NCBI RefSeq assembly: GCF_014201415.1
Contig: NZ_JACHEH010000003.1
Span: 124,001-188,000, forward strand
Direction: 5' to 3'
Length of the DNA: 64,000 bases
Source of the DNA: Chelatococcus composti
GTDB lineage: Bacteria > Pseudomonadota > Alphaproteobacteria > Rhizobiales > Beijerinckiaceae
Below, piece after piece: positions 8,268-32,716 of the stretch. The notes under the pieces are model-generated. The model had not been told where the DNA came from and searched no databases. It was given only the letters and a program-made list of their open reading frames with translations. Within the stretch, counting starts at the first letter, position 1, and every line of letters begins with the position of its first letter. A program made the translations under genes and the position numbers.

Positions 8268-8463
8268 AACACCCCAATCCCCTGTCGCCCGAACTGATGA
8301 CTCCGGTCGAACGCCGCGCGGAACTCTGTCGACTGCTGGCGGCAGGGTTGGTCAGGCTGCGGATACGGGAGAACGGGCAACTCTCTGCGAAGAAGGGAGA
8401 ATTTCCGCTACACAACTCGCTCGACCGGAGCGGTAGTGCAGGTTCAACCGACCGGAGGACCGC

Positions 8464-8467
<4 letters not shown>
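8264..8467 (+). CDS. Small hypothetical protein (67 aa) between helicase and DUF2924
   Basis: A 67-residue frame has ATGA overlaps at both ends, with the helicase stop and the DUF2924 start, which is strong positional evidence that it is translated. The N-terminal half (SPELMTPVERRAELCRLLAAGLVRLR) looks like a short DNA- or protein-binding helix pair, and the tail is polar. I recall similar short proteins beside DUF2924/recombinase modules in alphaproteobacterial prophages. The function is unknown. Confidence 0.6.
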
Positions 8468-8915
<448 letters not shown>

Positions 8916-8919
<4 letters not shown>

Positions 8920-13350: not shown

Positions 13351-14356
13351 ACCCGAGCAGGAGAGCCCGCCGCAGGGACGCTGGAATGTCCTTCGGGCAG
13401 AGCACATCGACGGAGATGGTCTCGGCATCCCCTCGTTGCCTCTTGACGCAATGACGAAGACGGGGCCCGTCCGGCTTGCCGTTGGCCCCGGCGGGGAGGC
13501 GCGGCTGCTGGTGCCGCTTGCCGCGGGCGAGAAGATCGATGCTCTCGCGACGGGCAGTGCCTTGAAGATCAGCTTGACAACCCTCACGCATGGGCAACGC
13601 GCGATCCGGTTTCTCGATGTCATCTGCATGTCGCCGGATCTCGAAGCCGTGTTCGGCGAGGTCGTGGATGACATCGTCCGCCGGCTGGCCGACCGGAAGG
13701 ACGGGGTCGCGGCAGTGGCTGGTGCGCTCGATGACTTCCGCGAACTTCTCGTCCCACCAGTGGGGAGAGAGCTGGACAGATCGCGGGTTGTCGGCCTCGT
13801 GGCGGAGCTGGTCGTGTTGAACCGGCTGCTCGACATTTCGCCCTCGGCCTGGCGCTGCTGGCGCGGACCGGCCGGAGATCGGCACGACTTCCGGGCCGGA
13901 GACACCTCGCTCGAGGTCAAGGCATCGCTCGGCGCAGGGGTTCGCGAGGTCACCATAAACGGGATCGATCAGCTGGAACCGCCTGCGGGCGGGTCTCTGT
14001 ACCTTGCGCATCTGGTCCTCGAAGCGGTCGAGGGCGGGCTTCTCACAGTGGCTTCGCTTGGAGACAGGGCGTTGCTGCGGGCCGATGACCCCGCGGGACT
14101 GCGGGCGATGTTCGCGGCGGTCGGATGCACGGACGTACATGACGCCGCATGGAACCGTTTTGCGTTCAGGGCGGAGGCAGAGCGCCTCTATCATGTCGGC
14201 CCGGGTTTTCCCCGGATAGCGCCTTCGAGCTTTGTCGGGGGAGCGATCCCAGCAGGCATCGTCGATGCGACCTACCGAATCGATCTCGGTCATGCCTCTG
14301 ACGCAGAATGCCCGCCGGAGGAATTCGCCTCGCTCCTAAGGGAGCTGTCTGGATGA
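13343..14356 (+). CDS. PD-(D/E)XK motif nuclease-like protein (DUF4420-type) of the defence locus
   Basis: GTG at 13343 gives 337 residues. The C-terminal half has a restriction-endonuclease-fold signature: a helix with GLVAELVVLNRLL (E155), then RHDF (D182), then LEVKAS (E191 and K193). This D...ExK pattern indicates an intact metal-dependent nuclease site. The N-terminal domain (residues 1-110) is of unknown fold and could recognise DNA or partners. The family appears next to Z1 ATPases in known gene arrangements, so it is the likely DNA-cutting subunit. It overlaps both neighbours (8 bases upstream, ATGA downstream), which suggests stoichiometric production. Confidence 0.8.
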   Translation: MSRPEQESPPQGRWNVLRAEHIDGDGLGIPSLPLDAMTKTGPVRLAVGPGGEARLLVPLAAGEKIDALATGSALKISLTTLTHGQRAIRFLDVICMSPDLEAVFGEVVDDIVRRLADRKDGVAAVAGALDDFRELLVPPVGRELDRSRVVGLVAELVVLNRLLDISPSAWRCWRGPAGDRHDFRAGDTSLEVKASLGAGVREVTINGIDQLEPPAGGSLYLAHLVLEAVEGGLLTVASLGDRALLRADDPAGLRAMFAAVGCTDVHDAAWNRFAFRAEAERLYHVGPGFPRIAPSSFVGGAIPAGIVDATYRIDLGHASDAECPPEEFASLLRELSG

Positions 14357-16206: not shown

Positions 16207-17111
16207 AGCGTCGGGTTGCGTTTCCGTTCCTCACGCTTTCCGATTCGGCCGTGGAAGCCTCCGCATGGGAGATTTCTCTGGACGGTGCCGAATGGTCCGC
16301 CGCGGGCGAGTTCCTTCCTCACTGGGACAGCGCCAGCGACCTCCGAGTTCGAAGGACGCTGCGACTGAATCTCGAACTGGCAGCGTCCGACCTCGGCATC
16401 CCGGCCGATCATCTCGCCGCGGCGGCCTCGGTGAGGATCGGGACGGGTCAGGGCAGGCTACCCCGCCAGGTCCTTTCCCGCACGCGTCGGGAACTTCGTT
16501 CGGGGGACACCTCCTGGGAGTTCGAGCAGACCATCGAGGGCCGCCGGCTTTCGATGGTCCTCGACCTGCAGACGGAGTTCCTTCTGGCGAATGCCCCCGC
16601 AGAGGCCTCGGCGCTGTCGCCCGTCCATCCCGGTGACCGGCTCTGGTCGGAGAATATTCGGGTCAGGCTCGAGGGCGAGGAGCCACGCTTCCCGATCGAG
16701 ACGGTGGACCTCGCGCAGATGCTCGCTGGCGGAATAGCGGGTGCTGCGCCGTGGCACCTGCATTGGTCGCCGGGGGAGTGGACGCGCGATTTCCACGGAG
16801 CGGTTCGTCTTTACCTCAACGCGAAGTCCGCCGAGACCCTTCAGCGGATCGAGGACGAGGACCCGGTCACGATCCAGTTCCTTCTTGGCGATGTCATGTG
16901 TCAGATCTGCGAGCGGTTTCTTGCCGACCCCGAAGCCGAGACGATGATGGATGCGGCGGAGCCAGGGTCGCTCGGTGCTCAGGCCGCAACGTGGCTGCGC
17001 AAGGCGTGGCCAGGCAAGGACGCTTCCTTCATCCGTTCCGTACTCGAAAGCCGTCCGGGCGTCTTCCGCTCAACCATGCTTGCGCTCGCAGAGCCGGGAG
17101 TTCCGGAATGA
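16203..17111 (+). CDS. Unknown defence-locus protein (302 aa)
   Basis: The 302-residue protein has no motif I recognise. The N-terminal half looks beta-rich (FPFLTLSDSAVEASAWEISLDG) and contains FEQTIEGRRLSMVLDLQTEF. The C-terminal half appears helical, with LLGDVMCQICERFLADPEAE. No signal or membrane segment is seen. It is coupled by ATGA overlaps to the GHKL ATPase before it and the 384-residue protein after it, so it is almost certainly a working part of the same machine, perhaps a scaffold or sensor. That role is inferred only from its position. Confidence 0.7.
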   Translation: MKRRVAFPFLTLSDSAVEASAWEISLDGAEWSAAGEFLPHWDSASDLRVRRTLRLNLELAASDLGIPADHLAAAASVRIGTGQGRLPRQVLSRTRRELRSGDTSWEFEQTIEGRRLSMVLDLQTEFLLANAPAEASALSPVHPGDRLWSENIRVRLEGEEPRFPIETVDLAQMLAGGIAGAAPWHLHWSPGEWTRDFHGAVRLYLNAKSAETLQRIEDEDPVTIQFLLGDVMCQICERFLADPEAETMMDAAEPGSLGAQAATWLRKAWPGKDASFIRSVLESRPGVFRSTMLALAEPGVPE

Positions 17112-18262
17112 CGTTTCTGCTTCCAAGACTGCCCGGACCTGCCTGCGACGTCATCGTTCGCAGGTTTCTCGAGCATGGACCATCAGCTTGGGCCGGCTTT
17201 CGCTCCGATGACCTTCCTGATCAGGTACGCTTTGCAGCGACGGGCGGCGCACCCGTCCCTGCAGGATCCCTCGCATCCGTGCGGCAAGAGCTCGTCGCAA
17301 TTGCCCGGAAACATGGGTTTGGACAGCAGGGCGCCCGGCAGTCCCATGCCGGCTTTGATGCCGAGGCCGCCGCCTGGCTTGCTCGATCCGACCTCTTCAC
17401 TACCGGCGAGGCCCTCCGGGATGATGTCTGGGCTTTTGTTGCCGCTGTCATGGCCCCGGACATCACCTACTGGCGCTTCGGCAACTCGACAGAGCGCTAT
17501 GCCGGAGGTGTGCGCAATACCTTCCAAAGGCTCTGGATGCGTGGCCGTGCACTCGACCGGGGGCCTGGGCATCCCGAGCGCTGGGGATTGCTCGATGCGC
17601 TGACCGAAGATGCCCTCGTGCAGATTACCGAGCGACCGAGCATCGGGGGCGATCACGTTCTTGCCCTTGCGGTCGCAGAGGCCTGGCTCCGCGCTGCGCG
17701 CCATCATGGCAAGGGGGCCATGGAGGACATCATGCGTCGCGCGATCCTCCGCATCCGGGTCCGCAACGAGATCAGGTCCCTTGCGGACCTGCCGCCGGGC
17801 GACCTCGCCAGTTTTCTCGACGGAGTCTTCGGCGTGCCCGATCAGTCCGCCACCACTCGAGGCGGAACATTGGGGGTCCTGGACGGCCCCGACGCTGCAC
17901 CTAGCAGGCGATCAGAAGACGACAAGCAGGTTGAGGCACTCGAGGACAAGCGCTCGATGCCAGGTTCGAGCGTGGCGGATGCTGCCCGGAAAGTGAGGCA
18001 GGAAGCCGGGAAGCGCGGTTGGCTTTCACCGAAGTCGCAATCCGCGCTCGAAACCCTTCAGGAAGGCCACGCTCATCTTGACCGGGGCGAACGTAACGCA
18101 CTCGACTATCTCCTCGGCAAACTCTCGGGCGCGGGCGTCTTGGCCGACGAAATCTCTTGCCTGCGAGCTGCCATGGCAGAGGCTTCGGTCCCCGGCGGTT
18201 CGCAAGACGGTGGCCCGGAAAGGCCGCGCAAGAGAAGCTGGGCGATCTGGCGGGCGAGGTAG
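17108..18262 (+). CDS. Unknown defence-locus protein (384 aa), possibly DUF6339-like
   Basis: The 384-residue protein starts with an ATGA overlap at 17108. An N-terminal alpha-helical domain includes DDVWAFVAAVMAPDITYWRF and NTFQRLWMRGRAL (about residues 105-155). A charged linker leads to a C-terminal helical patch ending in RGERNALDYLLGKLSGAG. I recall DUF6339-type proteins in this slot of Z1/GHKL operons, but that is a weak memory. Its last 157 bases overlap the end of the methyltransferase gene on the other strand, so the last 50 or so residues may be an unconserved extension. The function is unknown. Confidence 0.65.
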   Translation: MTFLLPRLPGPACDVIVRRFLEHGPSAWAGFRSDDLPDQVRFAATGGAPVPAGSLASVRQELVAIARKHGFGQQGARQSHAGFDAEAAAWLARSDLFTTGEALRDDVWAFVAAVMAPDITYWRFGNSTERYAGGVRNTFQRLWMRGRALDRGPGHPERWGLLDALTEDALVQITERPSIGGDHVLALAVAEAWLRAARHHGKGAMEDIMRRAILRIRVRNEIRSLADLPPGDLASFLDGVFGVPDQSATTRGGTLGVLDGPDAAPSRRSEDDKQVEALEDKRSMPGSSVADAARKVRQEAGKRGWLSPKSQSALETLQEGHAHLDRGERNALDYLLGKLSGAGVLADEISCLRAAMAEASVPGGSQDGGPERPRKRSWAIWRAR

Positions 18263-19746
18263 GGCGGCACGGCGTTCCCGACCTGCACATACTGCTGCGT
18301 CCGGTTGCCGAGGAACAGGTAGTCATCCGGGAAGGTCTGCAGGCGCGCCGCCTCGCGCACGGTCAGGCTGCGGCACTGCATGGGATCGGGGTGGATGAAG
18401 TAGTGGCCGTCCTTCGAGATGTGGCTCGTGACCGTGGTCGATGGCTCGCCGGCGAGCTGGACCCGGAAGCGGTCGTTGAAGACGCCGCTGTGCCAGTTGC
18501 GGTGGTCGGGACTGAGCAACATCGGAAAATCGGAAGCCTTCGGGCTGTAACCGCGCACCGCACCGAAGACGGCAGCGAACAGATAGCGCCCGAGGTCCGA
18601 GGGCATGTGCCCGCGTGTCTCGTGCTGGGCTATGCCACGCAACGCAGGGCGCTCCAGCCAGGCGAGGAGTTCGTCGTTCGATGTGCCGTAGCCCTCTGGG
18701 AGACGTGCCGACTGGCGGGGTGCCGGCAGCCCGTTCTGCAGGCCCCTTGCAACGGCGGAGAAGACGTCGCGCAGCGGCCCGTCTTCCTTGCCCCGGTGGA
18801 TGCCTGCCAGCAACCGGGCGGCCTCGACGACCTCTCGTTGCCAGCTCGCCGGGTCATCGCGACCGCGGCTCAGGCCGCTGCGCAGTTCCGGCATCATGCC
18901 GATGGCGTCATCGACAGTCCGTGTCACCCCGGAAACCGGTACACTCGTCCCGGTAGCCCTGTCCGCCAGATCTGAACGGATGCCAACGATGATCACCCGG
19001 TGACGCCGCTGCGGCACCCCCCATTCCTCGGCGCGGACGATGAAATCCGAAGGCTGCGCGGCTTCCTGCAGGCTGGCGCTGCCGTCCGCCACCCGGATCG
19101 CCCGCATCTCGTAGTGATGCCGCCGCCCGGTGCCGAGCGAGGCGAGGTCCTCCATCAGCATCTCGAAGACAAGGCGGCTCTCGACCGTCGAGGACAGCAT
19201 GCCCTTGACGTTCTCCATGACGAAGGCGGCGGGGCGCAGGCGGTCGAGCACGCGGATGTACTCGCGGAAGAGGTAATGCCGCTCGTCCTCCTCGGGGACG
19301 TATCCGACCTTCCCCTTTGCCCGCGCGCGCCCGACAAGCGAATAGGCCTGGCAGGGAGGGCCGCCGATCAGGATGGTGTCGTCGAACTCCCGGCGCAGCA
19401 TACCGATGGCATGATCGATGGCGGCGGCAGCCGGTTCCGTCCCGAGTTCGAGGCATTGCGCCTCCGCCGTCGCATGCCGCCAGGCCGCCGCATCCACCGC
19501 GCTCCAGTCGGGCTCGGGGATCAGCCCGGCGTGGAAGTCGATGAAGGCCTGCGGCAACACCCCGTGACGCGCCTGATATGCCCGCAGGAAGGCGCGCAAG
19601 GTCAGCGTGCGATGCGCCGAGGCCTCCTTCTCGACCGAGATGCCGATCCGGAACGGCGCGTGGCCGCCGAAATCGAAGGACGCAAATCCCTCGCCCAGCC
19701 CGCCCGGGCCGGCAAACAGATCGACGATGCCGAAAGTGGCTGGCAA
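18106..19746 (-). CDS. dcm: DNA (cytosine-5) methyltransferase
   Basis: The protein has the C5-methyltransferase motifs in order: motif I DLFAGPGGLGEG, motif IV GGPPCQAYS with the catalytic Cys (about residue 132), motif VI ENVKGM, motif VIII QRRHRVIIVG, a long variable target-recognition region, and motifs IX-X QTFPDDY and VGNAVPPYLARQ. The frame is open far upstream, but Vsr starts divergently at 19814. The TTG at 19746, just before motif I, is the most reasonable start (546 residues); an ATT near 19800 is possible. It should mark host DNA for the defence locus. The C-terminal tail past motif X overlaps the convergent gene by 157 bases. Confidence 0.9.
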   Translation of the reverse strand: MPATFGIVDLFAGPGGLGEGFASFDFGGHAPFRIGISVEKEASAHRTLTLRAFLRAYQARHGVLPQAFIDFHAGLIPEPDWSAVDAAAWRHATAEAQCLELGTEPAAAAIDHAIGMLRREFDDTILIGGPPCQAYSLVGRARAKGKVGYVPEEDERHYLFREYIRVLDRLRPAAFVMENVKGMLSSTVESRLVFEMLMEDLASLGTGRRHHYEMRAIRVADGSASLQEAAQPSDFIVRAEEWGVPQRRHRVIIVGIRSDLADRATGTSVPVSGVTRTVDDAIGMMPELRSGLSRGRDDPASWQREVVEAARLLAGIHRGKEDGPLRDVFSAVARGLQNGLPAPRQSARLPEGYGTSNDELLAWLERPALRGIAQHETRGHMPSDLGRYLFAAVFGAVRGYSPKASDFPMLLSPDHRNWHSGVFNDRFRVQLAGEPSTTVTSHISKDGHYFIHPDPMQCRSLTVREAARLQTFPDDYLFLGNRTQQYVQVGNAVPPYLARQIAQLLLRGLSGPPSCEPPGTEASAMAARRQEISSAKTPAPESLPRR

Positions 19747-19813
19747 ATCAGGGGCCTCTCGAATTCGGGTTTCAGGCTGTATACCAGGTCCGGACGCAGA
19801 GGCCAGGAGGCAA
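19747..19813. promoter_or_regulatory. Divergent control region between methyltransferase and vsr
   Basis: Only 67 bases separate the proposed methyltransferase start from the vsr ATG, and they include a GTATAC palindrome near 19779-19784 and an AGGAGG-like site (19807) for vsr. Overlapping divergent promoters are inferred from layout; no clear -35/-10 pair was found. Confidence 0.35.
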
Positions 19814-20281
19814 ATGGCAGATATCGTCGACAGGCAGACCCGCTCGCGGATGATGTCCGGGATACGGGGCAAGGACACGAAGCCGGAAATGGTGCTGAGG
19901 CGCGCCTTGCACGCGCGCGGCTTCCGGTATCGGCTGCATGGAAAGGGTGTGCCCGGTCGGCCGGATATGATCCTCGCGAAGCACCGGGCCGTCATCTTCG
20001 TGCATGGCTGCTTCTGGCACCGTCACGAAGGCTGCCGCTATGCGACCACGCCCGCGACCCGCCCCGAGTTCTGGGCAGAGAAGTTCGCCGCGAATGTCAG
20101 GCGTGATCGTGCGACATGCGATGCGCTGGTGGCAGATGGGTGGCGCGTGGCAACGATATGGGAATGCGCGTTGCGAAAGCCGAACCAGGTCACGGCGACC
20201 TGCGCTGCGCTGGTCTCATGGCTGGCAACTGGCGCGCCCAGTATCGAGATCGGCGAAGGCGACATTCGCGACACGGAATGA
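19814..20281 (+). CDS. vsr: Very short patch repair endonuclease (Vsr-type)
   Basis: The 155-residue protein has typical Vsr motifs: RSRMMSGIRGKDTKPE at the N-terminus, the active-site run PGRPDMILAKHRAVIFVHG with its Asp, and the zinc-binding HGCFWHRHEGC, completed by Cys residues further on. Vsr nicks 5' of the T in T:G mismatches left by deamination of 5-methylcytosine, so it protects the genome from the neighbouring methyltransferase. ATG at 19814 follows CCAGGAGGC. The gene is divergent from the methyltransferase and is the last recognisable gene of the defence locus. Some Vsr relatives are restriction effectors, so a nuclease role in defence is also possible. Confidence 0.9.
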   Translation: MADIVDRQTRSRMMSGIRGKDTKPEMVLRRALHARGFRYRLHGKGVPGRPDMILAKHRAVIFVHGCFWHRHEGCRYATTPATRPEFWAEKFAANVRRDRATCDALVADGWRVATIWECALRKPNQVTATCAALVSWLATGAPSIEIGEGDIRDTE

Positions 20282-20460
20282 CTGGAGGAGTGCTGAAAGC
20301 AACCCTGCCTGATCCTCCGATCGCATCGCTTCATCGGCGAAGGTTCGATCTCCGTTCCATCTCGACGGGCAGCCCCCGTCGTCGAAGTCAACAGCCTTGC
20401 ATCGACCGAAACGATGATATTTCAACATCTTGCATGAACTGAACCTTTGCACGTCCAGTC

Positions 20461-20616
20461 AACAGGTCCGGAGAATATCGCCCCGTAGAGACCGCTTCCG
20501 GGCCTCCTGAACCGGGGGCCAGTGCTCAGCCCATCGCGCATAACCCTCGAAAACAACGAGAAAATCCGGCCGGAGCCAGATGGGGAGAACGCTTTCGCGG
20601 GGGCAAGTGGCGGAGG
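20461..20616. repeat. Left copy of ~155-bp direct repeat (att-like remnant of tRNA-Ser flank)
   Basis: This noncoding stretch shares AACAGGTCCGGAGAATA (17 identical bases) and, further on, CGCATAACCCTCGAAAACAA and TTTCGCGGGGGCA with 32481-32635, the flank of tRNA-Ser. The offset is constant at 12,019-12,020 bases. It ends GTGGCGGAG, matching the CCA end and first acceptor bases of the tRNA, after which the similarity is lost. It lies in the only gene-free stretch over 300 bases (20282-20715); the remainder holds nothing I can name. Confidence 0.75.
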
Positions 20617-20715
20617 GGATGGGTCTGACGTCGAACCTTCTCCACCCGTAAGCATTTGATCTTTAAGGAACAAATTTCAGGGCCGACGACGCCAACTTCT
20701 TCGACAGCTCTGGCT

Positions 20716-21995
20716 CTAGATCACGAACACCGGGGCGAACCCACCCCCTGGCGTCCTGAAGTTCGTGGTCTGGCCTTGATAGAGGCGCGCTGCGACCAAA
20801 AGCACCTGCCCGTCGTAGGTATACAGTCGCACGTCCATTTTGCGCGCCTGGGGTATTTCGTCGATCTTGATCATGCGCTCGCTGGGGCGGACCAGCGTCT
20901 GGGCAACGTATCCGCCTCCCGCGATCTCCGCCCAGACTCTCGTCAGCTTGTCGCCACGATATACCGCCTTGCCACCATGTCCTCCTGTCGGCTTGAAGAA
21001 CAGGTCCTTGCGGGATTTCCAAAGTGCATCAGCGTTGTCGGGATTGACCAAAACGGTGCGTGGAACGGCAGCAAGCCCGGCCCGAATCCCCGGGTCGACC
21101 CCCCATGCCTCAAGTGTCGCGGAATTCGAAAGAAGCGAAAGGTTGCGCTTGCGCTTGTCGGCAAGGAGCGCGTGGTTGTGCGGATTCGGCGTTACGACAA
21201 CCGCGCCATCACGGTAGGATTCCTGCAATGCCTTGTGCTCGGGCTGATCAAAGGCGAAATCGGTGACCCGGTTGTAAACGAGATCGATCGTCTTTCCGTC
21301 GACGCTGAGCTGACCATCGTCGTAGCTAAGGTGATCGGCGTCGGCGATGACCGCGTCTACCCCTCGTGCCGCCAAAACTTGCCGCGCGAGCACGAACTCG
21401 GGATAAAGGTACTGTTCCGGCGGATTGTCATCGATGATGGCGATGCGTTGCGGCGTGCCCGTTCCCCGCTGCCGAATCCATTCGTTCTGGAACATGCGAA
21501 ACGCCGCGTCCTCGAACGATGGCAGCGCCGGGGGATATCCATTTCGGCGCAGCACGCGCGCTGCGCTCGTGCAAGAAAGGCATTGAGAAACGCGCCGCCG
21601 ACGTTGGTGTTGATTTCGATCAACCGGGGGCCGTCTTCGCCGAGATGAAAGTCGTAGCCCATCAATGCCCCGAGCGGGCCGTGATCCCCCCACGCGATTT
21701 CCGGCGCCCAGGAGAGGACCGCGGTCTTGTATGCCTCGAGTTGGGCGGTGGTCTCCACAGCCACTGCGATCGCGCGCATCTCATTGACGGTGGTGGCCGA
21801 AAGGAACACCGGCACGTGCGAGAACAGGTGGGTCTTGGGGCCGATGAACGTCTCGAAGAACGCCGGCTCACCTGCCTCCTGCTCCAGCGCCTCGCGCAGC
21901 GATGGAAGGTCCAGTGTAACGCAGAAGCAGTTCTTGTTGAGCCGCTCCGTGCGGTCTTGAACCCGCTTCGATGAACTGGAGCCGGGATTGTTCAT
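20716..21995 (-). pseudogene. ATP-grasp protein gene split by one-base frameshift
   Basis: Two minus-strand frames together make a continuous ATP-grasp protein of about 425 residues. The first frame, from ATG 21995, runs through LIEINTNVGGAFLNAFLARA. The second takes over at GYPPALPSFEDAAFRMFQ and holds KPTGGHGGKAVYRGD, KMDVRLYTYDGQVLLVAARL and the FRTPGGGFAPVF end. The switch falls in a run of five C on the coding strand (21530-21534) where six would restore the frame. It resembles glutathione- or glutathionylspermidine-synthetase-like ligases, with unknown substrate. It is coupled by ATGA to the small gene upstream and sits in the copper island. A sequencing error cannot be excluded. Confidence 0.7.
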
Positions 21996-22207
21996 TGAGG
22001 GGAAACCCGACGCTGCGCCATGATCGGGCGCGCTTCAAAGGCCAAGTAATCCATGAATAATCCCACGAACATCGCTCCCAAAGGTGTCGCCATCGGGTTG
22101 ATCCAAATATGCCGCTTCTGTCCGGCAGCCACAACTGTCACCGGGTGGGCCTCGGAAAACTGAGCAGCCGGTCGCACGGGCAGCTCCGGCCTGCAGCGAA
22201 GCTCCAT
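21992..22207 (-). CDS. Small putative membrane protein (71 aa) in copper island
   Basis: A 71-residue frame from ATG 22207 has one hydrophobic segment (NPMATPLGAMFVGLFMDYLAF). Its stop overlaps the ATP-grasp start (ATGA, 21992-21995), and its start lies 20 bases after the cytochrome c stop, which favours a real gene in a three-gene minus-strand operon. The frame stays open upstream of the ATG, so it may instead be the remnant of a longer gene. I do not recognise the family. Confidence 0.4.
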   Translation of the reverse strand: MELRCRPELPVRPAAQFSEAHPVTVVAAGQKRHIWINPMATPLGAMFVGLFMDYLAFEARPIMAQRRVSPQ

Positions 22208-22227
22208 GCCGAAGGTGCCATCAGCGC

Positions 22228-22695
22228 TCAGCGTGCTTGCGACACATTCTCCTGGTAGGTCCGCTCGCGCTCCGGCCAGGTGCTCTTGATATAGGCGAGC
22301 GCAGCCTGGATCTCTGCGTCGCTGAGGACGGCAAAGCCCGGCATGTCGCTCTTATAGCCGCCCCCGACGATGGCGGCCGTGCCCTCCTTGACGATCCGGA
22401 ACAGGATGTCATCGGGATGGTGCCACGTGTGGCCGTCGGCATCGTGTGGTGGCGCAGGGAGACGCCCGGACGGAAGGGGCGTCTTCCAGTCCGGCTGCCC
22501 CTCGAGCTGCGCACCGTGGCAGGACGCACATTGGTCCGCATAGATCTGCCGGCCCTGTTCGATGACTTCTGCAGATGACGCGGCGTTGGATGCGGTCTGG
22601 GCATAGTGCCTACCAGCGAAGACCGCCATGACCAGGCCTCCGACGAGCAACCCGGGCCACAAGATATTACGGAGTTCTTTTCGCATGAGTTGCAT
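22228..22695 (-). CDS. c-type cytochrome, secreted, in copper island
   Basis: ATG at 22695 (or 22686) gives about 155 residues. An N-terminal hydrophobic anchor (ILWPGLLVGGLVMAVFAG) is followed by a single class I cytochrome c domain with the haem site CASCHGA. A downstream Met in YKSDMPGFAVLSDAE is the probable axial ligand. It should be exported and matured in the periplasm and pass electrons near the copper-handling proteins. It is divergent from the copper operon at 22805, sharing a short control region, and is the first gene of the leftward unit with the 71-residue and ATP-grasp genes. Confidence 0.8.
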   Translation of the reverse strand: MQLMRKELRNILWPGLLVGGLVMAVFAGRHYAQTASNAASSAEVIEQGRQIYADQCASCHGAQLEGQPDWKTPLPSGRLPAPPHDADGHTWHHPDDILFRIVKEGTAAIVGGGYKSDMPGFAVLSDAEIQAALAYIKSTWPERERTYQENVSQAR

Positions 22696-22769
22696 GATTG
22701 GTGGCGAGGAATTTCTATTGGCTACATGCCGAGGATGAATTTCTGCCAGAGGCGCGACGCCGGAGGTAA

Positions 22770-22798
22770 TTGACATTCCCGTGACCAGCGCCTATCTT
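22770..22798 (+). promoter_or_regulatory. Strong sigma-70 promoter for the copper operon
   Basis: TTGACA at 22770-22775 and TATCTT at 22793-22798 are separated by exactly 17 bases. The predicted start of transcription falls at or near 22805, the A of an ATG, so the first mRNA may be leaderless. The site lies between the cytochrome c and the secreted-protein gene. Confidence 0.6.
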
Positions 22799-22804
22799 TC
22801 CGGC

Positions 22805-23161
22805 ATGTTCTCGCGCCTCGTCACTATGCTTGCCGTACTCGCGATCGCCGTCATGACGACGGTGACCTCCGCTCATGCGGCGCGCTTGAGCGCAGAGCCG
22901 GATCACTCGGTGCATGTCGGCGAGATGATGCAGGTTGCGGCCGGCAGCGAACATTCCTGTGATGGCGAACAGCACTGCGGATCGATCGACACCGGAAGCT
23001 GTGAGCTGCTTTGCGCCGGTCTTTCGGTCTTCCTGACCTCCCCGAGCGACAGCTCTGGCAGCGATTACGCGCCTGCCAGCCATGACCTGCCCACCGGTGC
23101 AGTGCTTGCCGGTCGGGCACCTGGACTGAACGAACGACCTCCCAAGCACCGTCTCCTCTGA
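22805..23161 (+). CDS. Small secreted Cys/His-containing protein of copper island
   Basis: The protein has a signal peptide (LVTMLAVLAIAVMTTVTSAHA) and a mature part with scattered Cys and His: VHVGEMM, EHSCDGEQHCG, SCELLCAG. ATG 22805 (118 residues) is preferred because the GTG at 22781 lies between the -35 and -10 of the promoter. It is probably a periplasmic copper-binding protein; no exact family is known to me. It is the first gene of the oxidase-CDF run, and a similar small protein sits at the far end of the island (29017). Confidence 0.6.
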   Translation: MFSRLVTMLAVLAIAVMTTVTSAHAARLSAEPDHSVHVGEMMQVAAGSEHSCDGEQHCGSIDTGSCELLCAGLSVFLTSPSDSSGSDYAPASHDLPTGAVLAGRAPGLNERPPKHRLL

Positions 23162-23236
23162 TCGCGCGTCCGGGCCGAGGCCCGCGGCGTCCTGTCGGTT
23201 TTGATGAACGGGACGAGCTGTCCCGAGGAGACGACC

Positions 23237-24745
23237 ATGAATACCCTTTCACGACGCGGCTTTCTTGCCGCTGGCGCAGCCATGCTGGCCTCTGCGCATC
23301 TGCCCCGAATCGCGTCAGCGCAGGGCATCGCCCCGCTGCCCTTGCACGCCGCCAGCCGGGTGCTGGACATCGACGGTCGCGCCGCCACCGTTTGGGGCCT
23401 TGCCGGCCCGGCCGGACAGGGCTTGACGCTCGACCCCGGCGCGCGGTTCCGGGTGGATCTGCGCAACGATCTCGATGTTGAAACGCTGATCCACTGGCAC
23501 GGCCAGATCCCGCCCAACGCACAGGATGGCGTGCCCGACATACCCTTGCCTATGCTCGCACCCGGCGAGACGCGCGCTTATGACTTTGCGCCGCTGCCCG
23601 GCACCTACTGGATGCATGCGCATGTGCCGCTGCACGAGATGCGGCTTCTGGCAGCACCGCTGATCGTGCGCAGCGCCGAGGATGTCGCCGCCGACCGGCA
23701 GGAGGTGGTGCTGTTCCTGCATGATTTCTCGTTCAAGGCACCCGAGGAGGTGATGGCCGAGATCCTTGGCGGCCACGGGACCGCCGGCGGTCATGGAGGC
23801 GGCCACGGCGCGGTCATGGGCGGCATGGCGGCCATGGACCACGGCGCGATGGGGAACATGCCGATGGGTGGCATGGATCACGGCGCCATGGGTGGCATGA
23901 CGGGAATGGGCGCCATGGACGGCATGGCGATGGACCTCAACGATTACGACTGGGACGCCTATCTCGCCAACGACCGCACGCTTTCGGATCCCGAGGTGGT
24001 GCAGGTCGAGCGCGGCGGGCGCATCCGCCTGCGGGTGATCAACGCCGCCGCGGCAACGGTGTTCTGGATCGAGACTGGCGAAGCGCAGGCCCGGCTCGTC
24101 GCGGTCGATGGCCATGCCGTTCAGCCCGTCCCCGGCACGCGGTTCGGCTTGGCCATGGGCCAGCGACTCGATCTCGAGATCGACCTGCCGCAGGAGGGCG
24201 GCGCTTGGCCGATCCTCGCGCTGCGAGAGGGCGCGCGCGAGCGCACCGGCCTGATTCTTGCCACGCAGGGCGCCGAAATCCGGCGCATTGATGGCGTGGC
24301 GGAAAGCGAAGCACCCGCCTTCGACACCGACCTTGCGCAGGAGTCGCGACTGACCGCCGTCGACACCTTGCCGGATCGGCCGGTGGACCGCAGCCACATT
24401 GTGATGCTGGGCGGTTCGATGCAGCCCTATGTGTGGACGATCAACGGTGCCGTCTGGGGCCAGCATCGCGCGCTTGCCGCACGCAGCGGCGAGCGGGTCG
24501 TGCTGTCCTTCCACAACATGTCGATGATGGGCCACCCGATGCATTTGCACGGGCATGTGTTCCAGGTCGTCGGACTGAACGGACGTGCAGTCCGGGGCGC
24601 GCTGCGCGACACGGTATATGTGCCGCCGATGTCGATGGTCGATATCGCGCTCGACGCCGGCGAGGCCGCGCGCTGGATGCTGCATTGCCACCACATGCCG
24701 CATCTTGAGACCGGCATGATGACCGAATTCGCGGTCAGCGCATAG
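23237..24745 (+). CDS. Tat-exported multicopper oxidase (CopA/PcoA/CueO-like)
   Basis: ATG 23237 follows GAGGAGACGACC and gives 502 residues with a Tat signal (SRRGFLAAGAAML). Copper-binding motifs are HWHG (86-89), MHAH (126-129), HPMHLHGH (about 433) and HCHHMPHLETGMM (about 483), which together form the T1 and T2/T3 sites. A long Met/His/Gly-rich insert lies around residues 185-235, as in enzymes that oxidise Cu(I). It probably detoxifies copper in the periplasm by oxidising Cu(I). Its neighbours, a secreted Cys/His protein, a CDF transporter and CopA, all support a copper resistance role. Confidence 0.92.
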   Translation: MNTLSRRGFLAAGAAMLASAHLPRIASAQGIAPLPLHAASRVLDIDGRAATVWGLAGPAGQGLTLDPGARFRVDLRNDLDVETLIHWHGQIPPNAQDGVPDIPLPMLAPGETRAYDFAPLPGTYWMHAHVPLHEMRLLAAPLIVRSAEDVAADRQEVVLFLHDFSFKAPEEVMAEILGGHGTAGGHGGGHGAVMGGMAAMDHGAMGNMPMGGMDHGAMGGMTGMGAMDGMAMDLNDYDWDAYLANDRTLSDPEVVQVERGGRIRLRVINAAAATVFWIETGEAQARLVAVDGHAVQPVPGTRFGLAMGQRLDLEIDLPQEGGAWPILALREGARERTGLILATQGAEIRRIDGVAESEAPAFDTDLAQESRLTAVDTLPDRPVDRSHIVMLGGSMQPYVWTINGAVWGQHRALAARSGERVVLSFHNMSMMGHPMHLHGHVFQVVGLNGRAVRGALRDTVYVPPMSMVDIALDAGEAARWMLHCHHMPHLETGMMTEFAVSA

Positions 24746-24802
24746 GCCAGGCAGAGGACGTCGGATGCCGGCGTTCTCCCTCAGCAACAAGGAGGCGGAC
24801 TC

Positions 24803-25776
24803 ATGTCGATGTCTCACGGCGGCCATGCCGGTCACATGCCCCCGGGCGGCGATCGCAAGGCGCTTGTCATCTCGGGCTGTGGCTCACCGGCCTTTACTTT
24901 GTAGTCGAGCTGGGAATCGGCATCTGGACGGGCTCCGTCGCTGTCATCTCCGATGCCTTCCACACCTTCTCTGCCGTGGGCGGCGTGCTCATCGCACTGG
25001 TCGCGCTTCGCTTGACTGAACGGAAATCCAGCCCGGCACGTACCTTCGGTTATGTCCGGGCTGAGATCCTCGGCGCCCTTTTCAACGGCCTGTTTCTCGT
25101 CGCGATGGCTCTTTTCGTGCTGTGGATGGGCGCGATGCGTCTCATGGAGCCGATCGAACTGGCCACGACACCGATGCTGTTTGCCGCTGCCGGCGGGATC
25201 GCCACCGAGCTTGTCGCGCTCTGGCTGCTGTACGAACGCCAGAAAGGCAACCTGAACATGCGCGGCGCCTACTGGCACATCCTCCAGACCTTCGTCGGAA
25301 GCTTCCTCATCATCATCTCGGCGCTGGTGATCCGATTTACGGGCTTCCTCGCCATTGATCCCCTGCTTGGCATGGCCTTCGGGCTCGTCCTGCTCTGGGC
25401 TTCCTGGGGCATTCTGCGTGAGGCATTGCACATCCTGCTTCAGGGCACGCCGGAAGACCTGGATCTGGAGGCCGCAATCACGGCCATCCGGCAATTGGAG
25501 GGGGTGACGGATGTGCATCACGTCCATGCCTGGAGCCTGACATCCGGGCGCAATGTCTTCTCGAGCCACATCTGCGTTCGCAACTGGAAAGACGGCGAGC
25601 GGGTGCTGCGGCAGGCGAACCATCTCCTGCGCGAGCGATTCAACATCTACTTCTCGACGTTGCAGGTGGAGGAATACTGCCTCGATGGCGAGGAGACTGC
25701 AGCCGACATTGACATCATGCGGTCACATGCCGCGCCAGAACAGACCAACGTTCGAAATTTCCATGGGAATCACTAA
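24803..25776 (+). pseudogene. Cation diffusion facilitator transporter gene with frameshift; unusual metal site
   Basis: ATG 24803 with a GGAGG site begins a His-rich N-terminus (MSMSHGGHAGHMPP), but the frame stops at TAG near 24904. Removing a duplicated TG in GGCTGTGGCTC (24878-24881) joins it to the downstream frame, giving one CDF protein of about 320 residues. That frame has six-helix membrane segments and a cytoplasmic domain with TDVHHVHAWSL. The usual HxxxD metal pairs read HTFSA in helix 2 and HILQT in helix 5, so both Asp are missing. If the frame is rescued, the substrate may not be Zn. It lies between the multicopper oxidase and CopA. Confidence 0.7.
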
Positions 25777-25808
25777 ACGGCGATACTTTTCCAGCTTCCA
25801 GTCACCTC

Positions 25809-25839
25809 TTGACCGTCTAGCGATTGGAAAGCGCAGAAC
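25809..25839 (+). promoter_or_regulatory. Candidate CueR/HmrR-type operator-promoter before copA
   Basis: TTGACC (25809-25814), 19 bases, then CAGAAC (25834-25839) resembles the long-spacer promoters of MerR-family copper regulators. The spacer dyad ACCGTCTAGCGATTGGAAAG fits about 14 of 20 positions of the HmrR/CueR consensus as I recall it. The next gene is the copper ATPase, which fits. No MerR-type regulator is in the window. Confidence 0.45.
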
Positions 25840-25882
25840 GGCGAACGCAAGGCCGAGGGCGAGACGCCGAGGAGGCGTAAAA

Positions 25883-28270
<2,388 letters not shown>

Positions 28271-28348
28271 TGTCGGTGCCAGGCCTTCGATTCGCTGCTC
28301 ACCTCATTGTGCGCCGCACATGGACCGTGACGGGGAGACAATGAATCC

Positions 28349-28852
28349 ATGAAGCGAGGTTTGACGATGAGAAACGATCACCGCATCAGCCGGCGCGCCA
28401 TTCTGGCCGCTGCCGGCGCACTTCCCCTGCTGCTGTCTACAATCGGCCGGGGGCATGCTGAAGCGCTGCCTCTGGTGAGCGTCACAAAGGATCCGTCCTG
28501 CGGCTGCTGCGATAGCTGGGTCGCGCATATCGAGGCCGCAGGCTTCCCGGTGCGGGTGGTGGAAACCACCGACATGGACAGCCTCAAGCAGCGGCTCGGC
28601 GTGCCGGTCGAACTGGCATCGTGCCACACCGCCGAGGTGGGCGGCTATGTGGTCGAGGGCCATGTGCCTGCCGCGGCGATCCGTCGCCTTCTGGCCGAGC
28701 GGCCTGACGCGACAGGGCTAGCCGTTCCTGGAATGCCCGCCGGCTCGCCCGGCATGGATTTTCCAGGCGTCGATCCCGAGCCCTATGAAGCGTTCCTGTT
28801 CGGCCCGACCACCCGGAGCTTCGGGCGATTCCTCGGTCCGCGGGAAATCTGA
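28349..28852 (+). CDS. DUF411 secreted metal-binding protein
   Basis: The 167-residue protein has a Tat-like signal (ISRRAILAAAGALPLLLS) and the DUF411 core: VTKDPSCGCCDSWVAHIEAAGF, with its CxCC site, and then LASCHTAEVGGYVVEGHVPA. Such proteins bind copper or silver in the periplasm and often accompany efflux ATPases. ATG 28349 is used; ATG 28367, with a closer GCGAGG, is an alternative that keeps the Tat motif. It is 78 bases after copA and likely in the same copper operon. Confidence 0.85.
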   Translation: MKRGLTMRNDHRISRRAILAAAGALPLLLSTIGRGHAEALPLVSVTKDPSCGCCDSWVAHIEAAGFPVRVVETTDMDSLKQRLGVPVELASCHTAEVGGYVVEGHVPAAAIRRLLAERPDATGLAVPGMPAGSPGMDFPGVDPEPYEAFLFGPTTRSFGRFLGPREI

Positions 28853-29016
28853 CACGGGGCTGACGACATGACCGCCCGGCTTGCGAATGATCCGAAACAG
28901 CACTTCGCCGAGGCGGCTTGCCTCCGTCAGCGGGGCTGTCTCGCGGCGTCGGGTGGCGCGCGACGTGAACGTGACATCGCACGGACCCGGCGTGCCGCCG
29001 GGAAGGAAGGTGGCGC

Positions 29017-29427
29017 ATGACCGGGCGGGCGCGAGCTGCCTTCGGGGCGAAATGCTGTCGATTGCGCCAGTTTGCGGTCTACATCCTGCTGTTTGCCATC
29101 GGCGCCCTGGTTCTGCAGGTCCCGGTACATGCCGGCCCCGGCGGACACGCCATCCACCAGCAACAGGCCGCCGGCACGGCAAGCCACTGCGCCAATCATC
29201 ACATGGCGGACGACCATGGCGCCGATCAATCGGCAGGCTGCGCGAATGCGGACGGCAGCCCAAATCTTGCGGATTGCTGCCAGACCTGTCTGGCCGCCGC
29301 GGTTCTCGTCGCGCCGCCGACGGTCGGCCCGCCCGTGAGCGGTGAGGTTTTCACGGTTGTGCGCCCCGATCCGCACGACCGATCACCGGAAGGCATCCTG
29401 AAGCCGCCACGTCTCATCGCTGCGTGA
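29017..29427 (+). CDS. Small secreted/membrane Cys-His protein at end of copper island
   Basis: The 136-residue protein has a hydrophobic N-terminal segment (QFAVYILLFAIGALVLQVPVHA) and a mature part with HCANHHMADDH and LADCCQTCLAA, followed by a Pro-rich tail. This resembles the DUF2946-like small proteins found in copper operons, though the family call is uncertain. GGAAGG near 29000 supports the ATG at 29017. It is the last gene of the copper run, and its stop touches the methyltransferase remnant at 29424, marking a junction. Confidence 0.55.
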   Translation: MTGRARAAFGAKCCRLRQFAVYILLFAIGALVLQVPVHAGPGGHAIHQQQAAGTASHCANHHMADDHGADQSAGCANADGSPNLADCCQTCLAAAVLVAPPTVGPPVSGEVFTVVRPDPHDRSPEGILKPPRLIAA

Positions 29428-29765
29428 TGCGCAGGGATCGCCGCGAGAACGAGAGATGTCTCCGGCCGCTCCGGCGCATCGCGCCCCTGCTGTGGCTGCG
29501 CGCGGGCGCCCGTGGCCGGCGCATCGACACGCTGCCCGAACAGGGCTGGGCGGTGGCCGATACCTATGGCCTGCTCACCGATCTCGACCGCGCGGCCGAA
29601 TTCTGTGCCGCGGTCGAGGGGACGCAAGGGTTGAAGATCGCCTATGTCGTCACCGATGACGACCGGCGCTTTCAATCCGTGGCGCGGCGCCTGCCGGCGG
29701 AAGTCGAGCCGATCCGGCTCTACGAGGCCTATCTTTCCAATTTCCGCTTTTCGATGGGGCGCTGA
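29424..29765 (+). pseudogene. 3' remnant of a DNA methyltransferase (type III Mod-like)
   Basis: About 110 codons of the C-terminal end of a Mod-type adenine methyltransferase remain: RRIAPLLWLRAGARGRRID, VADTYGLLTDLDRAAEF, KIAYVVTDDDRRFQSVARRL and LYEAYLSNFRFSMGR. This tail normally precedes a res gene by a few bases, as here (3 bases to 29769). The catalytic domain (DPPY and FxGxG motifs) is absent, since the frame starts at the last copper-island gene. The copper island therefore appears to have replaced the 5' part of mod. The adjoining Res protein would lack its modification partner. Confidence 0.7.
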
Positions 29766-29768
29766 GGC

Positions 29769-32354
29769 ATGAAGTTCACGCTCAAGGATTACCAGGAAGA
29801 CGCTGTCCGCGATGTGCTGGAAAACCTCAAGGACGCGGCGATGTTCTGGCGCGAACGGGGGCGCAAGACCGCCTTTTCGCTGACCGCGACCACCGGCGCC
29901 GGCAAGACCGTGATGGCCGCGGCCGTGTTCGAGGCGCTGTTTCACGGCGACGACAATTTCGATTTCGAGGCCGACCCCGGCGCCGTGGTGATCTGGTTCA
30001 GCGACGACCCCTCGCTGAATGCGCAGTCCCATTTCCGCCTGCGCGAGGCCTCCGACCGGCTGAACCTGTCGGACCTGGTGATCGTCCAGAACACCTTTCA
30101 GCGCGAGAAGCTGGAGCCGGGGAAGGTCTATTTCCTCAACACCCAGAAGCTGAGCAAGACGAGCCTTCTGGTGCGCGGGCATGACCCCGACGATGCCGGG
30201 GTAGAGACCGAAGGCGGCGTGCCCCTGATGCCGGATGCGCGGGCCTTCACGATCTGGGACACGATCCAGAACACCATCGAAGACCCTGATCTGACGCTCT
30301 ACCTCGTTCTTGACGAGGCGCATCGAGGCATGCGCGGCGCGAATGGCGGCGAGAAACCGACCATCGTCAGGCGCCTGATCAACGGCTCGGGCTCGGTGCC
30401 CGGCATCCCCGTGGTGCTGGGGATTTCGGCGACGGTCGAGCGGTTCAACGCGGCCATGGCCGACATGACCGACCGCGCGACCCTTCCCAACGTGGTGGTG
30501 GATTCGGCCAAGGTGCAGGCATCGGGCCTGTTGAAGGATACGATCATCCTCGACGTGCCAAACGAGGTCGGCCAGTTCGACACGGTGCTGGTGCGGCGCG
30601 GAACTGACAAGTTGAAGGAGATCACGGCTGCCTGGGAGGCCTATGCGGCGGAACAGGGCGATGCCGATCCTGTCGTGCCGCTCATGGTTCTCCAGGTGCC
30701 GAATACGCCCGACCCCGACGAGATCGGGCGCGCGCTCGATACGATCTACGAACACTGGTCGGATCTGCCCGACGATGCCGTGGCGCATGTGTTCGGCGAC
30801 CACACCACCCAGACCTTTGGCCGCCATTCCATTCCCTACATCTCGCCGGAACGCGTGCAGGAATCCACCTGGGTGCGGGTGCTGATCGCCAAGGATGCGA
30901 TCAGCACGGGCTGGGATTGCCCACGGGCAGAGGTGATGGTGTCGTTCCGCCCGGCGCGCGACAGGACGCATATTACCCAGCTGCTCGGCCGGATGGTCCG
31001 GACACCCCTTGCGCGGCGCATCGCGGGCAACGAAAGGCTCAATGCCGTCGACTGCATGTTGCCGCTCTTCGACAAGAAGTCGGTGACAGAAGTCGCCAAG
31101 GCGCTCATGTCGGGCGGCGACGGGGGCGAGGAGCTGCCCGGCCGCCGCGTGCTCGTCAATCCCGAAGAGTTGAAACCGAATCCGGCCATCCCCAAGGAAG
31201 TCTGGGACAAGCTGACCTCGCTTCCCTCGCAGGCCTTGCCGAAGAAACACGCCAAGCCGGTCAAGCGCCTCACCGCCCTGGCGCACGAATTGGCAGCGGA
31301 TGGGCTTTTGCCCGGCGCCGGCAAGAAGGCTCACGCCGAGATGCACAAGGTGCTGAATGCCGCTAGGGAGCGCTACAAGGAAGAGATCGCGAAAGCGCGC
31401 AAGGCCGTGCTTACGGTCGAGGGCATCGCCGTTGGTGTCGATCTTGATGCCGGCGAAATGTCCTTCGACGATTTCATCGAGGCCGCTGACTTCGCCGTCA
31501 TTGATGACGCATTCCGTCGGGCAGGACGTGTACTCAGCCCGGATCTTGCGACGACATATTGTGAGGCCCTGGCGAAATCCGAGGGTGATCCGGCCGACTT
31601 GGAAGCGGCACTGATCGAGGCACGTGTCACCATCGCGGCCATCGGAATGGTGCCGGGAGTGAAGACCTATCTCGAAGACGAGGCCGAAAAACTGGCCAAC
31701 GACTGGCTGACCAGATTCCGGGTCGAAATCAGGGGACTTTCCGATGAGCGACAGGAAGTCTATCGCCAGCTTAGGGAAATGAGCGCTCATCCGCTGGACG
31801 TCGATCTGGCCGAACCGAAGTCCTGGATGCAACCCACGACCATTCGAGAGGCCGACGGGACCGAAACACCTCTACCACGATACGAACGCCACCTGATGTG
31901 CGCGACTGACGGGCTGTTTCCGGAAGACTTCAATTCCTGGGAAGCCGACGTGATCAAGGCAGAACTGAAACGACCGGATGTCGTTGGGTGGTACCGCAAC
32001 CCATCTCGTGCCAGTCAGGATTCACTGGGCGTCACATACGAGAACGACGGAGAAATCAAGATCGTTCGGCCAGACTTCATCATTTTTGCGCGTCTGCCGG
32101 ACGGGTCAATTGCGGCGGACATTGTCGATCCTCACGGAACGCAGTTCGGCGATGCCATTCCCAAGCTGAGAGGACTGGCGGCCTACGCGGAAAAGCACGG
32201 TCACGTTTTCCGCCGGATCGACGCGATCGCCAAGGTCGGCGAGCAATATCGCGTTTTGGATATCAAGGAACCCTCTGTCCGCGCCGCGATCGAGTCGGCG
32301 ATATCAATCAAGAACCTTTATGACAGTACCCTTGCCCAAGACTATCACTTGTGA
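29769..32354 (+). CDS. Type III restriction Res-like SF2 helicase/nuclease, orphaned
   Basis: The 861-residue protein begins MKFTLKDYQEDAVRDVL, typical of Res. It has a Walker A loop TTGAGKT (41-47), a DEAH box LDEAHRG (about 182), an SF2 motif III GISATVERF, and motif VI GRMVRTPLARR. Residues beyond about 650 hold PDFIIFARLPDGSIAADIVD, with D and a later E/K region suggesting a nuclease-like C-terminal domain. It is an ATP-dependent translocating restriction subunit that should work with Mod. Because mod is reduced to a stump, it may be inactive or have another role. It ends 272 bases before the tRNA-Ser gene. Confidence 0.82.
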   Translation: MKFTLKDYQEDAVRDVLENLKDAAMFWRERGRKTAFSLTATTGAGKTVMAAAVFEALFHGDDNFDFEADPGAVVIWFSDDPSLNAQSHFRLREASDRLNLSDLVIVQNTFQREKLEPGKVYFLNTQKLSKTSLLVRGHDPDDAGVETEGGVPLMPDARAFTIWDTIQNTIEDPDLTLYLVLDEAHRGMRGANGGEKPTIVRRLINGSGSVPGIPVVLGISATVERFNAAMADMTDRATLPNVVVDSAKVQASGLLKDTIILDVPNEVGQFDTVLVRRGTDKLKEITAAWEAYAAEQGDADPVVPLMVLQVPNTPDPDEIGRALDTIYEHWSDLPDDAVAHVFGDHTTQTFGRHSIPYISPERVQESTWVRVLIAKDAISTGWDCPRAEVMVSFRPARDRTHITQLLGRMVRTPLARRIAGNERLNAVDCMLPLFDKKSVTEVAKALMSGGDGGEELPGRRVLVNPEELKPNPAIPKEVWDKLTSLPSQALPKKHAKPVKRLTALAHELAADGLLPGAGKKAHAEMHKVLNAARERYKEEIAKARKAVLTVEGIAVGVDLDAGEMSFDDFIEAADFAVIDDAFRRAGRVLSPDLATTYCEALAKSEGDPADLEAALIEARVTIAAIGMVPGVKTYLEDEAEKLANDWLTRFRVEIRGLSDERQEVYRQLREMSAHPLDVDLAEPKSWMQPTTIREADGTETPLPRYERHLMCATDGLFPEDFNSWEADVIKAELKRPDVVGWYRNPSRASQDSLGVTYENDGEIKIVRPDFIIFARLPDGSIAADIVDPHGTQFGDAIPKLRGLAAYAEKHGHVFRRIDAIAKVGEQYRVLDIKEPSVRAAIESAISIKNLYDSTLAQDYHL

Positions 32355-32459
32355 ACTGCGAAGATTCGAGGCGGGTTCCGGTCGCCCGTGCGGACGGATT
32401 CCGCAAACGCGTCGCGAAGTTGCCCCAAAAGTTCCTTTTGCAATCAACCAATTACGCCT

Positions 32460-32483
32460 GTTAACCGCAATGACGCGGTTAAC
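32460..32483. repeat. Perfect 9-bp inverted repeat at the right direct-repeat edge
   Basis: GTTAACCGC and GCGGTTAAC flank the six-base spacer AATGAC. The right arm ends in AAC at the first bases of the direct repeat (AACAGGTCCGG). The left copy at 20461 lacks this dyad. It may be a recombinase site or a leftward terminator of the tRNA transcript. Confidence 0.5.
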
Positions 32484-32635
32484 AGGTCCGGAGAATACGG
32501 GGCACAAGAGAACGAATTCGCATGCTCGCGCCCGAAGGCGGTGAACAGCCCCTCCCGCATAACCCTCGAAAACAACGCAAAAATTCGGCCGCAGCCGGAT
32601 CGGGAGAACGATTTCGCGGGGGCAGGTGGCGGAGA
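32481..32635. repeat. Right copy of ~155-bp direct repeat, next to tRNA-Ser 3' end
   Basis: This partner of 20461-20616 runs from AACAGGTCCGG to the GTGGCGGAG at the tRNA 3' end. Identity is highest in the last 80 bases (32556-32635). Together the copies bracket a 12-kb accessory block holding the copper island and the orphan Res gene, and they look like att sites of a tRNA-targeted integration. No integrase gene was found inside the block. Confidence 0.75.
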
Positions 32636-32716
32636 GAGAGGGATTCGAACCCTCGATACGGTTTCCCGTATACACGCGTTCCAGGCGTGCGCCTTCAACC
32701 ACTCGGCCACCTCTCC
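32627..32716 (-). tRNA. tRNA-Ser (anticodon GGA)
   Basis: The minus strand folds as a class II tRNA. The 5' acceptor GGAGAGG pairs with TCTCTCC, the D-arm region is GCCGAGTGGTTGAAGGC, and the anticodon loop CTGGAAC reads UCC with anticodon GGA. A long variable arm (TATACGGGAAACCGTA) and a T arm GAGGGTTCGAATCCCTC follow, with discriminator G at 32630 and an encoded CCA at 32629-32627. Its 3' end is the likely integration target of the block to its left. Confidence 0.95.

Follow-up and report, generated by a model that had tools for sequence, protein, structure and literature searches.

A copper cassette joined to the tail of a type III mod gene in Chelatococcus composti: a probable scar of a decayed mobile element at tRNA-Ser

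In a stretch of 64,000 nucleotides from Chelatococcus composti (contig NZ_JACHEH010000003.1, positions 124,001 to 188,000; hereafter referred to as the window), a run of copper genes passes directly into the end of a type III mod gene, which is followed by res. How were these two sets of genes joined, and what is left of the restriction system? The initial annotation of this DNA proposed that a copper island had replaced the 5' part of mod, leaving a restriction-type helicase without its protective methylase.

The last gene of the copper cluster (29017-29427, + strand), DUF2946-like with a Pfam match under its cut-off, ends with a TGA at 29425-29427 that shares bases with the start of the next frame, in a TGATG overlap. 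This second frame (29424-29765, + strand; hereafter referred to as the stump), with possible starts at GTG 29424 or ATG 29427, stays open through the join and reaches its stop at 29765. Alignment with intact mod-res pairs, a check suggested by the initial annotation, placed the start of Mod homology at stump residue 16 (position 29469), the 15 preceding codons being non-Mod. Residues 16-113 (29469-29762) align with the extreme C-terminus (98 residues) of a type III Mod, at positions 616-713 of the 713-amino-acid Mod of locus L003, with an identity of at most 81%. The PADLOC MTase_III profile (PDLC03645) matched the stump over profile positions 613-708 of 709 (E=1e-40), and the stump could be aligned to 38 of the 47 loci from relatives described below; searches against Pfam, NCBIfam and PHROGs gave no match. 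Because the DUF2946-like gene looks complete (the alignment with its G083 relative, at 36% identity, extends as far as residue 135 of 136) and Mod homology starts at about 29469, the join lies between 29428 and about 29469. The initial annotation had thus correctly described a copper gene stopping at 29427, a C-terminal Mod stump starting in those same bases and an intact res after it, the latter consisting of one uninterrupted frame of 861 codons.

The annotation had left room for a complete mod at another site of the genome, which measures 3.7 Mb and is 99.99% complete. In a tblastn-style search of this genome with the full Mod as the query and E values of up to 1, the stump was the sole match, and no further part of Mod was found. 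Two other N6/N4 methylases with PF01555 are encoded by this genome, one apparently CcrM-like and the other apparently ParB-fused; both were rejected as the missing mod, as they are of other kinds than this Mod. Relatives were sampled as 47 loci chosen by similarity to Res, 32 of which were suitable for scoring mod, as they included the beginning of res together with 2.2 kb or more of upstream sequence. A mod frame of at least 700 amino acids was present in 31 of these 32, the exception being L031, with a split mod. The loci left out of this count had too short a contig (L004, L008, L013, L035, L038, L039 and L048) or lacked the 5' part of res (L029, L032, L037, L040, L042, L043, L044 and L046; L042 has merely 354 bases upstream). 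The intact relatives encode a Mod belonging to the type III family by both fold and sequence. It matched PDLC03645 at 4.7e-270, belongs to the beta class and contains the DPPY and FxGxG motifs, as in type III systems, and has as its three top PDB matches 7dsu (Z 22.3), 6k0w (Z 20.9) and 4zcf_B (Z 20.2), all Mod proteins, EcoP15I and Mbo45V among them. By comparison with EcoP15I and Mbo45V, only the last 98 residues are left in C. composti, and the methylase and target-recognition domains that Mod provides in a functional type III restriction-modification system are missing. The combination of an intact res with the tail of mod alone was seen only in this genome among the 47 loci, and no second genome with the same copper-stump arrangement was found. 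This Res was absent from three other genomes of the genus, which gave two weak helicase matches, and was present at E≤1e-100 in two of 397 family genomes, including that of C. composti itself.

The junction lies within a 12.0-kb segment (20608-32634; hereafter referred to as segment B) with attachment-like ends on both sides, stopping at the 3' end of a tRNA-Ser(GGA) gene (32627-32716, - strand), the putative integration target, which has its 3' end facing the elements and res. The left end (20608-20642, + strand) comprises the core TGGCGGAG, the complement of the tRNA-Ser acceptor end, followed by a conserved left-end motif. The right end (32461-32633, + strand) runs into the 3' end of the tRNA gene, with the core at 32627-32634. 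This 173-nt stretch between res and the tRNA gene is repeated at 20439-20614 (+ strand), where the second copy, the right end of a neighboring element (element A), directly abuts the left end of segment B, and it is also found after res in many relatives. In an alignment of 16 copies, conservation extends to the core TGGCGGA(G) and then ends. The core is followed by a tRNA-Ser called by ARAGORN in six of the 16 loci (L002, L005, L019, L032, L038 and L045; anticodons gct, cga and tga), and, in L006, L008, L012, L040 and at window position 20608, by a second conserved motif ending in a sequence like CCAACCTTCTC, which we take to be the left end of a following element. The only noncoding RNA found at the repeated right-end sequence was the tRNA. 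A profile built from these 16 sequences, two from the window, identified the right end in 18 of 48 loci (the 47 relatives plus L084), 14 of which had contributed to the profile, the other four being independent. A Pfam scan of the longer ORFs of segment B recognized no integrase or recombinase.

Element A retains a large serine recombinase (8436-10226, + strand), considered to be its integrase. Its cargo between the integrase and the right end (10717-19995) includes Z1/MzaC, a DUF4420/MzaD-like protein and a C5 DNA methylase, the latter on the opposite strand, giving an Mza-like defence operon. The matches to the MzaC (6.2e-84) and MzaD (3e-7) models, together with the C5 methylase, make it similar to the Mza defence system, but MzaC and MzaD are the only genes of this system identified in element A. 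The outer left end was located at contig position 103216, 20.8 kb to the left of the window, by a left-end motif with one mismatch; this motif was derived partly from the window's own copy. Just to the left of this end, at or before contig position 103124, the sequence corresponds to the left flank in sister species G002 and G003; between this flank and the same tRNA-Ser, these species have different inserts, of 3.9 and 17.4 kb. The whole island thus extends over 53.4 kb and consists of element A (contig position 103216 to window position 20615) and segment B (20608-32634). Metal-related genes, P-type ATPase-like and, by eye, ACR3-like, occupy the left end of element A (103862-109677 of the contig), and the copper-ATPase search gave a weak DNA match at contig positions 103638-103719. 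Element A also contains a phage head module (contig positions 110153-118571; L089), beside an endolysin-like peptidase, with small and large terminases, a portal, a protease, a major head protein, an adaptor and a head closure protein. No tail gene was recognized beside it among the scanned frames, a composition reminiscent of capsid-forming satellites. The portal (L089:10987-12285) is 100% identical over 220 residues to a sequence from Gemmobacter nectariphilus (G399, L006; C37:3345-4004), pointing to a recent transfer of the head module.

We examined the distribution of these ends and of the integrase among relatives. A serine integrase, a stretch of about 2 kb, mod and res follow each other in this order in eight of the 47 loci (L002, L005, L006, L007, L009, L012, L019 and L045), and their integrases are homologous to the element A recombinase. 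The right end follows res in seven of these eight loci, the contig of L007 stopping too early. Two of three viral contigs encoding Res (L122 and L124) contained the integrase, mod and res, and the third (L123) contained a frameshifted mod and the right end. The recurrence of this gene order and of the right end suggests that mod-res is cargo of a tRNA-Ser-targeting element. For an independent test, viral contigs were picked by the integrase alone, 80 being listed among at least 600 matches. The right end was detected in 12 of the 80 listed contigs, 5.8-9.5 kb downstream of the integrase (E values of 1e-23 to 1e-51), with no matches on reversed sequences. Among the 24 listed contigs with at least 5.8 kb past the integrase, 12 had the right end and the other 12 did not. 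Two of the 12 right-end contigs run into a called tRNA-Ser (tga and gga). None of the 12 contained this mod or res, and all 12 intervals gave a PADLOC match to a restriction or other defence protein, based on one protein per slot chosen after the frame starts had been seen: type I restriction or methylase subunits, C5 methylases, a type IIG-like enzyme, a different type III Mod and an Hhe/PDC-S37 protein. In the host family, the right end was found in six of 397 genomes, including that of C. composti; of the four others that were scanned, L117, L118 and L119 have C5 methylase or type I proteins adjoining it, and L116 has integrase pieces and only weak defence matches. Additional PADLOC scans gave no match for L117:6288-8855 and only weak matches for L116:1499-2749. 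The 12 viral slots, the family right ends and the Mza-like cargo of element A indicate that the stretch separating the integrase from the right end serves as a slot in which one defence system can take the place of another.

Some members of this sample have themselves decayed. The 5' part of res has been lost and the right end kept in L032, L037, L040 and L043, with an IS-like transposase, read from the sequence, beside the break in L037. This decay is of the same kind as that in segment B, and the loss of the 5' side of a mod-res pair is not peculiar to C. composti. Other rearrangements were also seen. In L029 (4186-8469; Rhodanobacter), two other genes lie between Mod residues 1-174 and a Res that starts at residue 36, the central part of the pair having been exchanged. 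In L040 (4843-7392), a Mod-like stretch (133-463, 43% identity) is fused internally to Res, from residue 399 onward, within one frame of 849 amino acids.

The copper genes have a different affiliation. A cytochrome c gene (22228-22776, - strand) is followed on the + strand by genes for a multicopper oxidase (23201-24745), a cation diffusion facilitator (24976-25776; real start perhaps further out), a copper-type P-type ATPase with YHS and HMBD domains (25553-28270; real start perhaps further in), a DUF411 metal-binding protein (28349-28852) and the DUF2946-like protein. The copper genes at 22262-28949 have an identity of 88% with plasmid pTAV1 of Paracoccus versutus, over 64% of the sequence used as the query, and G083 has the same succession of genes between the multicopper oxidase and DUF2946-like genes, both included. 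These genes therefore appear to be plasmid-type and recently mobile. No plasmid match was obtained for the DUF2946-like gene next to the junction, and the whole cassette is therefore not contained in one record. The initial annotation was right that the 5' part of mod is gone and that copper genes stand in its place. Its copper island, on the other hand, is not a free island: these genes lie in the 12.0-kb segment with attachment-like ends at tRNA-Ser, with mod-res as the original right-end cargo of the element.

We consider it highly probable that the join represents an internal scar in a decayed tRNA-Ser mobile element, the left part of which was replaced by the copper cassette. A family of elements with large serine integrases would insert into the 3' ends of tRNA-Ser genes through a shared core, the space separating the integrase from the right end being used for cargo with a role in restriction or another form of defence. 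A member of this family carrying type III mod-res would have resided at tRNA-Ser(GGA), and the plasmid-type cassette would have replaced everything from about 100 bp inside its left end through Mod codon 616, including the integrase. The remnant would be segment B, which keeps both attachment-like ends, the C-terminal domain of Mod and Res, in tandem with element A, in which an integrase is retained. Two routes to this state can be envisaged. Either the cassette took the place of the left part of an element with integrase, mod and res, or two neighboring elements, the left one bearing copper genes and the right one mod-res, were fused by a single deletion that eliminated the integrase, most of mod, and one right and one left end. 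These routes fit the data equally well. The element A integrase can probably still act on the right end, and segment B might be excised with or by element A. The 12 of 24 sufficiently long viral contigs without the right end count against this explanation.

Segment B resembles the CIMEs described in PMC5704250 for decayed ICEs and IMEs. It lacks a recognizable recombinase among its Pfam-scanned ORFs, keeps both attachment-like ends, as judged by sequence only, and lies in tandem with an integrase-bearing element at a tRNA 3' end; integrase-bearing elements with the same right end are represented by the seven loci with integrase, mod, res and right end. It differs from the CIMEs of that account in that its relatives are prophage-like elements with a serine integrase. 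In the accretion model presented there (PMC5704250), the newcomer lands beside the target gene, whereas here it is the integrase-less segment B that adjoins the tRNA gene; either segment B therefore decayed after its arrival or element A entered at the left end of segment B.

Res (29769-32354, + strand) is a complete SF2 helicase of 861 amino acids with a putative C-terminal nuclease-like domain. It has the SF2 helicase motifs of a functional type III Res (Pfam ResIII match of 1.2e-12; TGAGKT and DEAH invariant) and shares Walker A, DEAH and, putatively, the C-terminal nuclease-like domain with type III Res proteins, but its match to PADLOC REase_III is weak (4.5e-9), and it is unlike a textbook PD-(D/E)XK enzyme in that the lysine is missing at the usual place, with RPDF and DxxDPHG conserved. 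The C-terminal domain, compared as part of the whole Res, is of mixed helix-strand structure in the predicted model. EcoP15I Res was the longest structural match (413 residues, Z 16.7), with Mfd scoring equally well (304 residues, Z 16.9), but was absent from the best 50 Foldseek matches, and searches of solved structures with Res and with a Res profile gave no real match. Res retains 303 of 309 near-invariant columns, and its median dN/dS (0.120) is the same as that of L002 and within the range of the relatives. Values of 0.081-0.107 were obtained against the four closest relatives and of 0.047-0.066 among those four, with dS near saturation; this ratio of about twofold is a weak hint of relaxation. 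The stump retains 38 of 39 near-invariant columns, with a median dN/dS of 0.194, on the high side of the relatives (0.085-0.237; L035, 0.384). Res thus displays no clear decay at the sequence level, and the event may therefore be recent or, which is unlikely, Res and the retained Mod tail may still act. As described for EcoP15I (PMC4490356), Mod recognizes DNA via its target-recognition domain and grips Res via its methylase and C-terminal domains, the latter (539-644) making extensive contacts with Res, which is brought to its site by Mod. The initial annotation was correct about the absence of a protective methylase but not about the implied danger to the host: because Mod recruits Res, a Res deprived of the target-recognition and methylase domains would find no site and is expected to be inert, with neither methylation nor restriction.

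The principal alternative is that the Mod tail and Res still cooperate, as a methylase-free helicase-nuclease expressed from the copper operon. The stump would correspond by position to the C-terminal domain contacting Res in EcoP15I (PMC4490356), its frame is open across the join and overlaps the stop codon of the copper gene, and both proteins are conserved to the extent given above. We nevertheless regard this reading as unlikely, in view of the hint of relaxation on Res, the high ratio for the stump and the lack of a second genome with the same arrangement. Furthermore, a domain like that of EcoP15I could not be aligned in the stump, the Mod model having a pLDDT of <50 over residues 583-634 and structural matches ending at about residue 594. 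We give the same low credence to a broader version, in which the family lands at tRNA-Ser 3' ends of any anticodon with a plug-in defence slot, and segment B is an integrase-less passenger with a type III system turned into a copper-operon unit, the Res-binding tail of Mod and Res persisting as a methylase-free machine.

A plain chromosomal insertion of the copper cassette into mod, with coincidental end repeats, would be in keeping with the plasmid-type, recently mobile nature of the copper genes. It is very unlikely, given that the right end is duplicated (20439-20614 and 32461-32633), abuts tRNA-Ser and recurs both among the relatives' loci (18 of 48) and among the listed contigs chosen by integrase (12 of 80), and that the other side of mod is missing rather than displaced. 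The uniqueness of the arrangement in the data seen might also suggest a chimeric assembly uniting two unrelated contigs at the stump, but the junction lies inside a 545-kb contig with a frame open across it, and both sides belong to one att-bounded segment between conserved chromosomal flanks, making such an error extremely unlikely. The initial annotation had itself raised the possibility of a small full-length protein. The 113-residue frame does have start codons of its own, but its homologous part forms the C-terminus of frames of at least 700 amino acids in 31 of the 32 suitable relatives, and no stand-alone homologue of about 100 amino acids was found in the 38 matched loci, barring cuts by contig ends or frameshifts; this explanation can hardly be right.

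A truncated mod is, in itself, ordinary decay, and the parts assembled here are known: type III restriction, copper cassettes and att-bounded CIME segments in tandem at tRNA genes. In the literature within reach, with most subscription journals outside it, we found no account of elements combining a tRNA-Ser site, a serine integrase and a slot for restriction genes. In the account of Paracoccus prophages in PMC6536676, integration sites are given as unidentified for the largest serine-recombinase cluster (11/15). Those prophages resemble the family described here in being alphaproteobacterial and carrying many methyltransferase and some metal-resistance genes, and differ in that tRNA-Ser is the putative site for the present family; the two families are compared by description only. 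The decayed element of C. composti provides a natural example of Res left without its Mod. It also makes readable, from sequence, an element family with an integrase, an attachment core and a slot for restriction cargo, and thereby a candidate integration site for the serine-recombinase prophages of this bacterial group, and restriction systems may be found simply by searching between this integrase and this right end.
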